Below are positions 33,336 through 58,581 of a stretch of 58,623 nt of DNA, piece after piece (the first letter of the stretch is position 1; each line of letters opens with the position of its first letter). The notes below the pieces were generated by a model. That model worked only from the letters and a program-made list of their open reading frames with translations, did not search any database and was not told the origin of the DNA. This DNA is from Prevotella sp. (GTDB taxonomy: Bacteria; Bacteroidota; Bacteroidia; Bacteroidales; Bacteroidaceae). Location: positions 1 through 58,623 of the forward strand of contig JAFULM010000044.1 in the NCBI GenBank assembly GCA_017483185.1. Reading direction: 5' to 3'. Position numbers and translations under genes: made by a program.

Positions 33336-33788
33336 ATGACAGGAAAAATAATCGACTTGCCCAAAATATTTGACCCGCGCGGCAATCTGACCGTAGCCGA
33401 AGGCAACCGCAACATACCGTTTGACATCGCCCGCGCCTATTGGGTCTATGACGTGCCGGGCGGAGAGAGCCGCGGCGGACACGCACACAAGCACTGCCGC
33501 GAGTTCATCATCGCCGTGAGCGGCAGCTTTCAGGTGACGCTCGACAACGGTCACGAGCGCACCACCTATCACCTCAACCATCCTTATCAAGGCCTGCTCG
33601 TCGAGACGGGAGTATGGCGCACACTCGACGACTTCTCCTCAGGAGCGGTCTGCCTCGTACTGGCGTCCGACCCGTTTGAGGAGGAGGACTACATAAGGGA
33701 CTACGGAGAATATATGAAATGGCCCCACCCCGGCCCTCCCCAAAGAGAGGGTGCCTACGATGTGAAGGAAGAAGGCCATGACATCTGA
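33336..33788 (+). CDS. fdtA: dTDP-4-keto-6-deoxyglucose 3,4-ketoisomerase (FdtA/QdtA-like)
   Basis: Cupin enzyme that turns the RfbB product into the 3-keto sugar that is then aminated. Features: DPRGNLTVAEGNRNIPFDIARAYWVYDVPGG at the start, the catalytic/metal-type His pair in SRGGHAHKHCREFI, and VTLDNG, GLLVETGVWRTLDDFSSG and ASDPFEEEDYIRDY in the second half. These are characteristic of FdtA, QdtA and the WxcM-like group; Fuc3N and Qui3N versions cannot be separated by eye. The last ~20 residues (WPHPGPPQREGAYDVK onward) are translated from a CCCTCCCC palindromic repeat. Confidence 0.87.
   Translation: MTGKIIDLPKIFDPRGNLTVAEGNRNIPFDIARAYWVYDVPGGESRGGHAHKHCREFIIAVSGSFQVTLDNGHERTTYHLNHPYQGLLVETGVWRTLDDFSSGAVCLVLASDPFEEEDYIRDYGEYMKWPHPGPPQREGAYDVKEEGHDI
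33720..33772 (+). repeat. CCCTCCCC palindromic repeat inside the 3' end of fdtA
   Basis: GGCCCCACCCCGGCCCTCCC, then CAAAGAGAGGGTGCCTACGA and TGTGAAGGA. The palindrome has mutated to CTCCCCAAAGAGAGGG. It encodes the protein tail. Confidence 0.8.
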
Positions 33789-34898: not shown

Positions 34899-36218
34899 AT
34901 GACAATCAAATATCTCGACTTAAAGAAGGTCACCGAACGTCACGCAGAGGAAATCCACGAGGCCGTGGCGCGTGTGATAGACAGCGGATGGTATCTGCAA
35001 GGCGAAGCCGTGGCACGCTTTGAGGAAGAATATGCGCGCTACTGCGGTGTCCGCCACTGCATAGCCTGCGGCAACGGACTCGACGCCCTTACGCTCATTC
35101 TGCGGGCTTACATTGAGATGGGTGTGATGGCAGAGGGCGACGAGGTCATCGTGCCGGCCAACACCTACATCGCAACCATCCTGTCCATAACGGAAAACGG
35201 ACTCGTTCCCGTGCTCGTCGAACCGCGTCTCGATACGTTCCAGATCGATGACGCGCTCATCGAACAAGCCATCACCGAGCGCACCCGTGCCGTCATGATT
35301 GTCCATCTCTACGGCCGCATGGCCTACACGGACCGCATCGGCGACATCTGCAACCGCCACGGACTGAAGCTCATCGAGGACTGCGCGCAGTCGCACGGGT
35401 TGGCCCCCCTCTTATCCCCCCAAGGGGGGATGAATGATTACTCTCATTCACAGATTAATCTTCAAAGTATCAGCAACAACTCACAGATTAATCTTCAAGG
35501 TATCAGCAACAACTCACAAATTAATCCCCAATGCGTCAGCAACAACTCACGGATTAATCAAAAGGACGCTATCACCGTTTCAAATACAAACTCCCCCAAA
35601 GCCTCCATCCTTTCACACACTTCATCCCCCCTTGGGGGGACCGAGGGGGGCTCCGCCGCCCACAGCTTCTACCCCGGCAAAAATCTTGGAGCTCTGGGGG
35701 ATGCCGGTGCCGTGACGACCGACGACGACGAACTGGCCGCCACAGTGAGGGCACTGGCCAACTACGGTTCCGCCCGTAAATATGTCTTCCGCTACCGTGG
35801 CCGCAACAGTCGCATGGACGAGATACAGGCCGCTGTGCTCAGCGTCCGTCTGCGCTATCTTGACGAGGATAACGCCGAGCGCCGCCGCATCGCCCTGCGG
35901 TATATAGAGGAAGTCCGCAACCCGCTTCTGACGCTCCCGTCCCGCGACTACTGGCGTCACAGCGTCTTCCATATCTTCCCCGTGCTCACTCCCCGCCGCG
36001 ACGAACTGCAGCGTTATCTTGCCGACAACGGCGTCCAGACCGTCATCCACTATCCCATACCGCCGCACAAACAGGAGTGCTACGCCTCGTGGAACGACCT
36101 TTCGCTGCCCGTCACCGAGCGCATCCACCGCGAGGAGTTGAGCATACCGTGCAATCAGGTGTTGACCGACGAGGAATTGTTCAGCATTATAAAACTGCTG
36201 AACAATTATGAATTATAA
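34899..36218 (+). CDS. DegT/DnrJ/EryC1-type sugar aminotransferase with a repeat insertion
   Basis: PLP enzyme expected to aminate the 3-keto sugar made by the FdtA-like enzyme (FdtB/QdtB role). Landmarks: YLDLKKVTERHAEEIHEAVA, DSGWYLQGEAVARFEEEYA, ACGNGLDALTLILRA, GDEVIVPANTYIATILSI, LIEDCAQSHG, Lys261 in SFYPGKNLGALGDAG, and VFHIFPVL near the end. Between EDCAQSHG and SFYPGKN relatives have about 10-15 residues; here there are about 84 extra (residues 168-252), rich in Asn, Ser, Gln and Ile. The insert is bounded by inverted CCCCCCAAGGGGGG palindromes and contains tandem copies of ISNNSQINLQ. The frame is kept and the Lys is intact, so the enzyme may still work. Confidence 0.88.
   Translation: MTIKYLDLKKVTERHAEEIHEAVARVIDSGWYLQGEAVARFEEEYARYCGVRHCIACGNGLDALTLILRAYIEMGVMAEGDEVIVPANTYIATILSITENGLVPVLVEPRLDTFQIDDALIEQAITERTRAVMIVHLYGRMAYTDRIGDICNRHGLKLIEDCAQSHGLAPLLSPQGGMNDYSHSQINLQSISNNSQINLQGISNNSQINPQCVSNNSRINQKDAITVSNTNSPKASILSHTSSPLGGTEGGSAAHSFYPGKNLGALGDAGAVTTDDDELAATVRALANYGSARKYVFRYRGRNSRMDEIQAAVLSVRLRYLDEDNAERRRIALRYIEEVRNPLLTLPSRDYWRHSVFHIFPVLTPRRDELQRYLADNGVQTVIHYPIPPHKQECYASWNDLSLPVTERIHREELSIPCNQVLTDEELFSIIKLLNNYEL
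35400..35654 (+). repeat. In-frame composite repeat insertion in the aminotransferase gene
   Basis: The left edge is CCCCCCTCTTATCCCCCCAA then GGGGGGATGAATG; the right edge is CTTCATCCCCCCTTGGGGGG then ACCGAGGGGGGCT. The middle contains four degenerate ~33-bp tandem units with TCAGCAACAACTCACAGATT. The boundaries share the CACTTCATCCCCCCTTGGGG sequence of the leuS inserts. Exact limits are uncertain by a few codons. Confidence 0.85.
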
Positions 36219-40577: not shown

Positions 40578-40806
40578 CCAGGGCCCCACCCCGGCCCTCC
40601 CCAAGGGGAGGGTGCCGGATATGTACACATCCCGCCGTAGGGTCGCGACCCGTCGCGACCGCCTCCTTTTCGCGTGGGATGCCCATCCCGGCATCCCGGC
40701 TCCCACAAGGGGAGGGTGCCTACAAGATGAAAGACGAAAGCCCTGAAATCTGATATATATAATTGACCCCGTGACACGGAGGCGGTCGCGACAGGTCGCG
40801 ACCCTA
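40578..40806 (+). repeat. Cluster of CCCTCCCC and GTCGCGACC-type repeats
   Basis: Contains a CCCTCCCCAAGGGGAGGG unit (40578-40622) joined to a GTCGCGACC unit (40637-40666), then a partial CCCTCCCC-type unit (40690-40735) and an inverted GTCGCGACC unit (40778-40806). The first two form an ~85-bp composite that is repeated almost exactly at 58497-58581. Confidence 0.8.
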
Positions 40807-45361: not shown

Positions 45362-45410
45362 GGGGCCCCACCCCGGCCCTCCCCAAGGGGAGGGTGCCTA
45401 CGAGGTGAAG
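45362..45410 (+). repeat. CCCTCCCC palindromic repeat after the M28-type gene
   Basis: GGGGCCCCACCCCGGCCCTC then CCCAAGGGGAGGGTGCCTAC and GAGGTGAAG; starts right after the stop at 45361. Possible terminator. Confidence 0.82.
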
Positions 45411-45480
45411 GGCGCTGATTTATGAAAAGAAAAAATGAGAATAGTTTTATTTAATAATAACCAATTATAAAAAATAGAAC

Positions 45481-48651: not shown

Positions 48652-51600
48652 ATGGAATATAACTTTAGAGAAATCGAGAAGAAGTGGCAGCAGCGGTGGG
48701 TTGAACAACATACCTATCGCGTTGAGGAAAACGCCGAAAAGGATAAGTTCTACGTGCTCAACATGTTCCCCTATCCCTCAGGAGCGGGACTGCATGTGGG
48801 CCACCCGCTGGGATACATCGCCAGCGACATATACGCCCGTTACAAGCGTCAGCATGGCTACAATGTCCTTAACCCGATGGGATATGACGCCTACGGACTG
48901 CCCGCAGAGCAGTATGCCATCCAGACGGGACAGCATCCGGCCGTGACGACCGATGCCAACATCAAGCGCTATCGCGAGCAGCTGGACAAGATAGGATTCT
49001 CGTTCGACTGGAGCCGCGAGATACGCACCTGCGACCCGGAGTACTATCACTGGACACAGTGGGCCTTTCAGAAGATGTTCAACAGTTACTACTGCAACGA
49101 CACCAAGCGTGCCCGCCCCATCGAAGAGCTCATCGAGGCTTTCCCGAAACACGGCTCCAAGGGACTCAACGCAGCATGCTCCGAAGAGCTGACGTTCACC
49201 GCCGACGAGTGGAATTCATGGGACGAGAAGCGCCAACAGGAGGTTCTGATGAACTACCGCATAGCCTATCTCGGCGAGACGATGGTCAACTGGTGTCCGC
49301 AGCTGGGCACGGTGCTGGCCAACGACGAGGTTGTCGACGGCGTATCCGAGCGCGGCGGCTATCCCGTCGTACAGAAGAAGATGCGCCAGTGGTGCCTCCG
49401 CGTGTCGGCATACGCACAGCGTCTGCTCGACGGACTGGAGACAATCGACTGGACAGACTCGCTGAAGGAGACGCAGAAGAACTGGATAGGACGCAGCGAG
49501 GGAACGGAGATGCAGTTCAAGGTGGCCGACAGCGACATCGAATTCACCATCTTCACAACCCGCGCCGACACCATCTTCGGCGTCACGTTCATGGTGCTCG
49601 CACCCGAGAGCGAACTCGTCGACCAGCTGACCACAGCCGACCAGCGCGCCGCCGTCGACGAATATATAGCCTACGTGAAGAAGCGCACCGAGCGCGACCG
49701 CATCAGCGACCACCGCGTGACGGGCGTGTTCTCCGGCTCCTACGCCATCAATCCCTTCACAGGCGACAAGATACCGGTGTGGATTTCGGAGTATGTACTC
49801 GCCGGCTACGGCACTGGCGCCATCATGGCCGTTCCTGCCCACGACTCCCGCGACTATGCCTTCGCCCGTCATTTCGGTCTGCCCATCATCCCGCTCATCG
49901 AGGGCGCCGACGTCAGCGAACAGAGCTTTGACGCAAAGGAGGGCATCGTGATGAACAGCCCGAAAGCCCCCTCCGGCTCCCCCAAGGGGGAGAGACCTGT
50001 GGGTTCGGACAACAGTTCAGGCACTTCATCCCCCTTTGGGGGGACTGAGGGGGGCTTCTCCCTCAACGGTCTGACCGTCAAGGAGGCCATCGCCGCCACG
50101 AAGAAATATGTAGAGGAGAACCATCTCGGCCGCGTGAAGGTCAACTTCCGCCTCCGCGACGCCATCTTCTCACGTCAGAGATATTGGGGCGAGCCGTTCC
50201 CGGTCTACTACAAGGAGAATATGCCATACATGATTCCCGAAGAGTGTCTGCCGCTGGAGCTGCCCGAAGTGGCCAAGTTCCTGCCGACGGAGACGGGCGA
50301 GCCGCCACTCGGTCACGCCACACGGTGGGCATGGGACACGAAGGAGAACAAGGTCGTGGACAACACGCTCATCGACAACGTCACCGTCTTCCCGCTTGAA
50401 CTTAACACCATGCCCGGTTTCGCCGGTTCCTCAGCCTACTATCTGCGCTATATGGACCCGCGCAACCACACGGCGCTCGTAGATAAAAAGGTGGATGAAT
50501 ACTGGCAGAACGTCGACCTCTACGTCGGCGGCACAGAACACGCCACCGGTCACCTCATCTACTCCCGCTTCTGGAACAAGTTCCTCTTCGACTACGGCTA
50601 CTCCTGCAAGGAAGAACCGTTCGGAAAGCTGGTCAACCAGGGTATGATACAGGGCCGCAGTAACTTCGTATATAGAATAAACATGACGGCCCCCTCCAAC
50701 TCCCCCAAGGGGGAGAGACCTGCGGGTTCAGAAACAAATAATATAAGCCTGTCATCAAATAACGGAAGCACTTCATCCCCCCTTGGGGGGACTGAAGGGG
50801 ACCACGGCCCGGTCTTTGTCTCTCTCGGCCTGAAAGACCAGTATGACACAACCCCGATACACGTCGACGTCAACATCGTCAGCGGCGACGTGCTCGACGT
50901 GGAGGCCTTCAAGGCATGGCGTCCGGAGTACAACAACGCCGAGTTCATCCTCGAAGATGGCAAGTACGTCTGCGGATGGGCAGTCGAGAAGATGTCGAAA
51001 TCGATGTACAACGTGGTTAATCCCGACATGATCGTCGAGCGCTACGGTGCCGACACGCTGCGTCTGTACGAGATGTTCCTCGGTCCGGTGGAGCAGAGCA
51101 AGCCTTGGGACACCAACGGCATCGACGGTTGCCACCGCTTCCTGAAGAAGTTCTGGGGTCTGTTCTATCCCAAAGGCGCAGAAACAATCAGCTGCAGCGA
51201 TAATACAGCCACGCCAGAACAGCTCAAGTCCGTCCATAAACTGATAAAGAAGGTGACGCAGGACATCGAGAACTTCAGCTACAACACGAGCATATCGGCA
51301 TTTATGATCTGCGTCAACGAACTGTCGCAGCTGAAGTGCACCGACCGCGATCTGCTCCGCACGCTCGTCGTCCTCATCGCGCCTTTTGCTCCGCACATCG
51401 CCGAAGAACTCTGGGAGGCTCTCGAAGGAGAAGGCAGCGTATGCGACGCACAATGGCCGAAATGTGAAGAGAAGTATCTCGTCGAAAGCTCCGTGCAGCT
51501 CGGTGTGGCCTTCAACGGCAAACGCCGTTTCGAAATGCAGTTTGCCGCAGACGCCGACAACAAGACCATAGAAGACACAGTGCTGGCCGACGAGCGCTCA

Positions 51601-51678
51601 AAGAAGTACACGGAAGGCAAACAGGTGGTCAAGGTCATCGTCGTGCCGAAGCGCATGGTGAACGTTGTAATCAAATAG
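48652..51678 (+). CDS. leuS: Leucyl-tRNA synthetase with two in-frame repeat insertions
   Basis: Charges tRNA-Leu. The class I signatures are HVGH at residues 48-51 and KMSKS at 780-784; the CP1 editing domain lies between. The start is the ATG at 48652; the TTG at 48646 is not needed. Two segments look foreign: about residues 438-469 ([19 protein letters not shown] and beyond), at the junction back to the catalytic core, and about 679-717 ([18 protein letters not shown] and beyond), before the conserved [18 protein letters not shown]. Both are translated palindromic repeats; typical Bacteroidetes LeuRS has only short loops there (around 940-950 residues total against 1008 here). The flanking sequence is well conserved and the frame intact, so the enzyme must tolerate both. 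Confidence 0.95.
49964..50057 (+). repeat. In-frame palindromic element 1 in leuS
   Basis: Left half AAGCCCCCTCCGGCTCCCCC then AAGGGGGAGAGACCTGTGGG; right half CACTTCATCCCCCTTTGGGG then GGACTGAGGGGGGCTT. The outer ends AAGCCCCC/GGGGGGCTT are inverted repeats. It adds about 30 codons. Confidence 0.88.
50688..50800 (+). repeat. In-frame palindromic element 2 in leuS
   Basis: Left half GGCCCCCTCCAACTCCCCCA then AGGGGGAGAGACCTGCGGGT; right half CACTTCATCCCCCCTTGGGG then GGACTGAAGGGG. The halves are the same as in element 1 but the spacer between them differs in length and sequence, so these are two separate events or one copied and then diverged. Confidence 0.88.
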
Positions 51679-51764: not shown

Positions 51765-51841
51765 GTAGGGACATATTCTTGTATTTGTCCGCAATGATTA
51801 TCAATCATTATTTGCGGACAAATACAAGAATATGTCCCTAC
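51765..51841. repeat. GTAGGGACATATTC hairpin element, copy 3
   Basis: Perfect 32-bp-plus arms beginning GTAGGGACATATTCTTGTAT and a short loop; fills the gap between leuS and rdgB. It could terminate leuS transcripts or form part of the rdgB leader. Confidence 0.9.
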
Positions 51842-51858
51842 TTTTATTCTACCAATAC

Positions 51859-58496: not shown

Positions 58497-58581
58497 GGCC
58501 CCACCCCGGTCCTCCCCAAGGGGAGGGTGCCGGATATGAACACATCCCGCCGTAGGGTCGCGACCGGTCGCGACCGCCTCC
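58497..58581 (+). repeat. Composite CCCTCCCC plus GTCGCGACC-type repeat
   Basis: CGGCCCCACCCCGGTCCTCC then CCAAGGGGAGGGTGCCGGAT, followed by ACACATCCCGCCGTAGGGTC and GCGACC units. Nearly the same 85-bp composite occurs at 40578-40666, showing that the two short families can travel as one unit. Confidence 0.8.

Follow-up and report, generated by a model that had tools for sequence, protein, structure and literature searches.

An in-frame palindromic insert in a Prevotella leucyl-tRNA synthetase suggests a largely overlooked type of mobile DNA that keeps the protein reading frame

Introduction

Repeated palindromes of the REP type have been described inside genes, including those for tRNA synthetases, in the accessible part of one report (PMC3733652), and the available portion of another documents in-frame REPs inside the REP transposase (tnpA) genes of subclass 2.4, a subclass abundant in Bacteroidetes (PMC6006769). 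A separate line of work concerns DUF559 genes: in the sections open to us, one paper assigns such a gene to the EDxHD homing endonuclease family (PMC9403480) and another connects a Caulobacter DUF559 protein with an SOS response (PMC12907096). The literature searched, with most subscription papers outside its scope, yielded nothing on DUF559 and palindromic elements together, though this does not prove the finding new. To our knowledge it is still an open question which agent spreads coding palindromes, for instance the Rickettsia palindromic elements (RPE).

Here we analyse a palindromic insert in the leucyl-tRNA synthetase (LeuRS) gene of a Prevotella sp. (GCA_017483185.1, contig JAFULM010000044.1). 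“The window” denotes the whole stretch of DNA analysed, 58,623 nucleotides long. A preliminary description of this DNA had read the insert as a mobile or copied palindrome that is tolerated within a coding region, a reading that genome-wide and comparative data now back. We consider it probable that the 94 bp derive from a mobile element with palindromic ends which sits in frame without being spliced, and whose full form bears a DUF559 nuclease; the insert would be a short copy that lacks the nuclease. The findings suggest that a type of mobile DNA which keeps the protein reading frame has been largely overlooked. The features concerned are:

48652..51678, + strand: leuS, leucyl-tRNA synthetase, 1008 aa, host of two inserts (TIGR00396, 917 bits)
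49964..50057, + strand: insert 1, in frame, 94 nt, 32 residues, between ..GIVMNSP and SLNGL..
49964..49972, + strand: left outer end of insert 1, pairs with 50049-50057 in the fold
49977..49992, + strand: left palindrome of insert 1, CTCCCCCAAGGGGGAG
50028..50044, + strand: right palindrome of insert 1, ATCCCCCTTTGGGGGGA
50049..50057, + strand: right outer end of insert 1
about 50689..50805 (outer limits approximate), + strand: insert 2, in frame, 38 residues, palindromes at 50700-50715 and 50776-50791
34899..36218, + strand: DegT/DnrJ/EryC1 aminotransferase gene (PF01041), host of a third in-frame element
35403..35653, + strand: element lying in frame within the DegT gene; its palindromes are at 35415-35430 and at 35625-35640, and its spacer holds 33-bp tandem repeats

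Material and methods

The assembly to which the window belongs comprises 2.47 Mb and is 75% complete. Copies of the 94-mer were sought in it with BLAST. The check for spanning open reading frames (ORFs) covered 28 of 30 BLAST places, the remaining two being LeuRS site 2, which was known already; the spanning ORFs L003, L011 and L013 were left out of the intragenic count. For the LeuRS alignment, 48 proteins were extracted, of which 43 relatives were used and five (L041, L045, L060, L064 and L077) were omitted; L034 gave no full LeuRS protein. In the GuaA comparison the insert region was readable by pattern in 15 of 30 loci (our own and 14 relatives). The genus set consisted of 100 genomes with 104 unique DUF559 domains; two of these were dropped for short flanks, leaving 102. 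The DUF559 tree was computed from 211 domains, with a few loci present twice.

Results

The reading frame of LeuRS is open throughout its 1008 residues, both inserts included, and the protein has all columns that are invariant across the alignment with the 43 relatives, KMSKS among them. The two palindromes and the inverted outer ends noted earlier for insert 1 are both present: the 94 nt fold into one long hairpin of -56 kcal/mol whose outer ends pair over 9 bases (z = -3.5; none of 200 shuffles was equally good). Because four of the six reading frames of insert 1 are open, stop codons alone do not force a common orientation or phase of the inserts. The insert had also been described as a surface loop. 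In an AlphaFold model both inserts have pLDDT values below 50 and lack secondary structure, but the model is mediocre (mean pLDDT 68) and some conserved stretches also fall below 50, so that a position on the surface is weakly suggested. A structure search turned up solved LeuRS chains, the alignment of which is unreliable across the insert.

The relatives do not share loops of this length. Between the same anchors, the site 1 loop measures 34 residues in our LeuRS against a median of 12, and at least 24 in four of the 43 relatives; the site 2 loop measures 47 against a median of 12, and at least 24 in one of the 43. A homologous loop of such length was thus not seen among them. At a third position, site 0, our protein has the normal 14 residues, and the loop reaches 26 in 10 of the 43 relatives. 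By eye, some of the relatives' inserts resemble our family (L033 at site 2, L065 at site 0) and others seem unrelated. In L033, sites 0 and 1 hold a lysine/asparagine-rich insert, apparently of another, unrelated kind. In the comparison of GuaA (GMP synthase), our protein carries the element, 11 of the 14 relatives have a short native turn, identical in two of them, and the other three have a different insert.

Copies are abundant outside leuS; the preliminary description had already noted the sequence between genes elsewhere in the window. The pattern TCCCCCN{2,4}GGGGGA occurs 12 times in the window (shuffle mean 0.01) and 94 times in the assembly, where the reversed pattern, used as a control, occurs 0 times; no other genome in the genus set of 100 has as many. 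BLAST with the 94-mer found 61 places at E<=10, and 32 of these pass E<=0.001. A spanning ORF is present at 10 of the 28 places checked. According to Pfam and TIGR00396, the in-frame hosts in this genome are LeuRS (twice), GuaA, a MiaB-type radical SAM protein, DegT, TopA (topoisomerase I) and GcpE/IspG, the last with the left half of the element only. By eye, the orientation relative to the coding strand is identical in all seven in-frame insertions, the left end lies in the same phase in six of the seven, and the right end reads SSP[LF]GGTEG in six of six. The spacer of the DegT element contains three 33-bp tandem repeats (35448-35559), and spacers may grow by such repeats. The window also contains a second C-rich palindrome family, GGCCCCACCCCGGCCCTCCCCAAGGGGAGGGTGCC, at 1136-1183, 33721-33768, 40582-40629, 45364-45411 and 58497-58544.

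What is new here is that palindromes of the same architecture flank DUF559 (PF04480, Vsr-like) nuclease genes. DUF559 matches were found in 62 of the 100 genomes. GC-rich hairpins lie on both sides of 84/102 DUF559 loci; the corresponding figures are 11/31 for Y1 (REP transposase) loci, 0/26 for LeuRS gene ends, 0/27 for ribosomal protein S10 (a weak flank control because it lies in an operon), 27/400 for random points of the window and 9/416 for other random places in the loci. In the same order, an inverted-end score of at least 18 was reached by 76/102 (median 26, against a median of 10 and 9.5% at or above 18 in mismatched flanks), 16/31, 0/26, 0/27, 0/400 and 6/416. A strict C-rich test on both sides was passed by 60/102 DUF559 loci, 5/31 Y1 loci, 0/26 LeuRS ends, 0/27 S10 loci and 10/400 random points of the window.

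Across the 100 genomes, and uncorrected for kinship, palindrome number correlates more closely with DUF559 number (rho 0.50, P 1e-7) than with Y1 number (rho 0.19, P 0.05); palindromes are also commoner in genomes with Y1 (P 0.007, 100 genomes). Two observations count against DUF559 as the mobiliser: among the 38 genomes that lack a DUF559 match, five still have at least five C-rich palindromes (one of them, G098, is 99% complete), and in G004 (99% complete, no DUF559 match) LeuRS nonetheless has such an insert. Our genome has two DUF559 genes, one of which (contig C19, locus L062) is flanked by palindromes on both sides, as judged by eye; the LeuRS element has a BLAST match (28 bp, 93%) 41 bp from its DUF559 domain. 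The DUF559 elements of this genome have the architecture and the 28-bp right end in common with the LeuRS inserts, but not the whole left end, and no exact parents were found. In genome G089, the right end of the DUF559 element that sits in LeuRS recurs at 19 other places and the left end at four.

DUF559 itself occurs in frame within host genes. The LeuRS of G089 contains a whole DUF559 domain in frame at site 0, between translated palindromes, and in that of G043 site 1 is occupied by an element with DUF559, whereas site 0 holds a short form whose ends are the same. ORFs longer than 190 aa, which need not all be fusions, hold 39 of the 104 unique domains. Among fusion ORFs hand-picked as the longest or clearest (10+10+10), Pfam identified a host domain in 20/20 from the genus and 10/10 from other Bacteroidota, and listed no intein domain in any of the 30; the inserts are open in frame with the host parts. 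Hosts in the genus are an ABC-F-like ATPase, AAA helicase-like proteins (2), DegT, an epimerase, GAF, HAD, DprA, arginine deiminase, an acetyltransferase (weak), guanylate kinase (2), IspF (3), RNase H (3), SpoU and an amino-acid kinase. In other Bacteroidota they are LeuRS (four times), ValRS, MetRS, RecG, MetH, HsdR and an Eco57I methylase, the last two being restriction-modification genes with DUF559 in frame by Pfam (L422 and L421 among the loci). In a group of nine loci (L125, L126, L130, L131, L136, L138, L144, L152 and L156; Pfam for L125 and L130, the rest by eye) DUF559 lies upstream of a fused guanylate kinase, and a translated palindrome marks the joint with DUF559.

In the tree, the DUF559 domains from DegT, epimerase and GAF form a clade of three (support 0.986), and hence one DUF559 lineage is found in three different genes. 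Three LeuRS site-0 domains of one family also form a clade (0.991), and including that of G089 takes a clade of 101 tips (0.823). Because the G089 domain joins only there, LeuRS site 0 was probably entered at least twice. Ten RecG domains (L259, L269, L272, L293, L298, L301, L305, L307, L311 and L316) constitute one clade (0.992) at one site, mostly from Flavobacteriaceae; the host was identified by Pfam for L269 and by the same flanking sequence for the other nine. Their dN ranges from 0.035 to 0.33 and their dS from 0.5 to saturated, rough values since many of the 45 pairs give a saturated or undefined dS. On these sequence comparisons the data suggest purifying selection on the nuclease domain inside RecG, which is possibly domesticated.

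Invariant residues among 33 DUF559 domains include E32, E71, D73, D86 and R89. Searched against the PDB, the DUF559 profile matches 3hrl at 4.5e-32 and 3r3p, a 'mobile intron protein', at 2e-6, and a predicted model of the DUF559 protein P0002 (pLDDT 88.6) matches 3hrl at 1.6e-6, I-Bth0305I (again 3r3p) at 4.6e-4 and Vsr at 0.19. Judged by profile and predicted fold, DUF559 is related to the homing endonuclease I-Bth0305I, which we take to be a member of the EDxHD family.

Beyond the genus, a scan of genome contigs yielded at least 80 DUF559 loci, nearly all titled Bacteroidota (one Limnohabitans) and partly from genomes of the genus set. Among the loci listed, hairpins lie on both sides in 67/78 (two were dropped for short flanks); among the 15 listed loci that carry none of the labels Prevotella, Prevotellaceae, Bacteroidales and Bacteroidaceae, hairpins are present in 14 and an inverted-end score of at least 14 in only five. 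A wider Bacteroidota sample has DUF559 in 61 of 118 genomes, but of its 26 usable loci (three of 29 were dropped for short flanks) only 13 are flanked by hairpins on both sides; the LeuRS-embedded domains L397, L399 and L420 lack hairpins on one or both sides. From outside Bacteroidota, 14 loci of 38 plasmid-collection records, picked non-randomly for taxon spread and with no matched control, have hairpins on both sides in 8/14 and reach an inverted-end score of 14 in 9/14.

Discussion

Our analysis favors a mobile element bounded by a left palindrome and an inverted right one, with a spacer between them that varies and in the full form carries the Vsr-like DUF559 nuclease. Copies would land between genes and also, in frame, within conserved genes at loops that tolerate them; there they would remain in the reading frame and not be spliced out. 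The nuclease may cut or nick an extruded palindrome or an unoccupied loop, and repair could then copy the element in via its palindromic ends. In essential genes in-frame copies alone would survive, and the GC-rich ends are stop-free in most frames. The copies and their frame, the relatives' short loops, the link between DUF559 and palindromes, the in-frame position of DUF559 in host genes and its kinship with a homing endonuclease are observed; that the inserts are translated and stay unspliced in the cell, that the nuclease cuts and that DUF559 mobilises the palindromes we infer. The nuclease-bearing form of the element supplies a likely mobiliser. It counts against this account that we saw neither a jump nor a cut nor an empty-site polymorphism. 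We give an even chance to the broader proposition of a new class of mobile element, in which a hairpin-ended DUF559 homing-type nuclease colonises housekeeping genes in frame, unspliced, via tolerated loops, and sheds nuclease-less palindromic copies, with one kept in the RecG of Flavobacteriaceae as a conserved domain.

A REP/RAYT system does coexist with the palindrome element in this genome. An inverted pair of GTAGGGACATATTCTTGTATTTGTCC lies between leuS and the next gene (51767-51842), and a similar GTAG-type repeat flanks the Y1 transposase locus L031. One could regard the palindromes themselves as REPs spread by the REP-associated tyrosine (Y1, HuH) transposase, with DUF559 as a passenger between two REPs. 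REPs inside genes, tRNA synthetases too, are known from the part of PMC3733652 open to us and in-frame REPs in subclass 2.4 transposase genes from that of PMC6006769; Y1 matches occur in 64 of the 100 genomes, and some Y1 loci show flanking hairpins (11/31) and inverted ends (16/31). We nevertheless hold this to be unlikely. A REP-type foot (GT[AG]G or CGTC) was found in only two of 65 hairpin contexts (loci of our own genome plus the window, both strands), and the only Y1 gene found in this 75%-complete genome (another may be missing) has the different, GTAG-type repeat. C-rich repeats on both sides are far rarer at Y1 than at DUF559 (5/31 vs 60/102), and palindrome number follows Y1 more weakly (0.19 vs 0.50).

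Passive insertion is a quite unlikely origin in our judgement. Template switching or repair slippage, with no dedicated enzyme, would have produced inserts that were kept in tolerant loops, and DUF559 would be a selfish gene using those loops. Inserts that by eye seem unrelated occupy the loops at sites 0-2 as well, e.g. in L033 and L071, and spacers vary between copies and hold tandem repeats, all of which would fit such a process. By contrast, the pairing of DUF559 with palindromes is specific, the inverted ends match, and the pairing extends to other phyla (the 9/14 plasmid-collection loci, for which there is no matched control). That the insert stems from faulty assembly or binning, or that this LeuRS gene is a pseudogene, is highly improbable even for an assembly of this completeness, given the intact frame and conserved columns of LeuRS and similar inserts in many assemblies and in named strains, among them Maribacter luteus RZ05, Flagellimonas marinaquae JCM11811 and Polaribacter sp. 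Hel1_85 (the last by Pfam).

If DUF559 is the enzyme here, the spread of coding palindromes becomes testable in cultured Bacteroidota. A nuclease-driven in-frame element would further mean that homing-type nucleases need neither intein nor intron to inhabit essential genes. Many a gene that now bears the annotation 'endonuclease domain-containing protein' might then be the core of such an element, and the unusual loops rich in proline and glycine in LeuRS, GuaA, MiaB, RecG and other proteins would be scars left by it.

Among known systems, MITEs are similar in that a short, two-ended, gene-less element has a longer, enzyme-bearing relative; they differ in that no DDE transposase is known here and the ends of our element are the hairpins themselves. 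With I-Bth0305I the element shares a related nuclease (profile 2e-6, fold 4.6e-4) and residence inside conserved housekeeping genes. Unlike I-Bth0305I, the DUF559 insert lies in the frame of the host ORF, is bounded by translated palindromes and is accompanied by no intein domain in the 30 ORFs. REPs and REPINs with their RAYT are likewise dispersed hairpin repeats that form inverted pairs and flank one enzyme gene, and in-frame REPs occur in subclass 2.4 tnpA (PMC6006769, available portion); here, however, the GT[AG]G/CGTC foot is absent in 63/65 contexts, and the enzyme is a DUF559 nuclease, theirs an HuH tyrosine transposase. The likeness in outcome to RPE, proposed at the outset, stands: RPE and intragenic REPs are repeated palindromes that have entered, in frame, a wide range of unrelated genes, many of them essential (accessible part of PMC3733652), and the palindrome described here is in frame twice in LeuRS and in GuaA, MiaB, DegT, TopA and IspG. 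For RPE the same part of PMC3733652 reports no nuclease gene so bounded, whereas in our case a nuclease gene that enters host genes in frame is likewise bounded by palindromes of this architecture.
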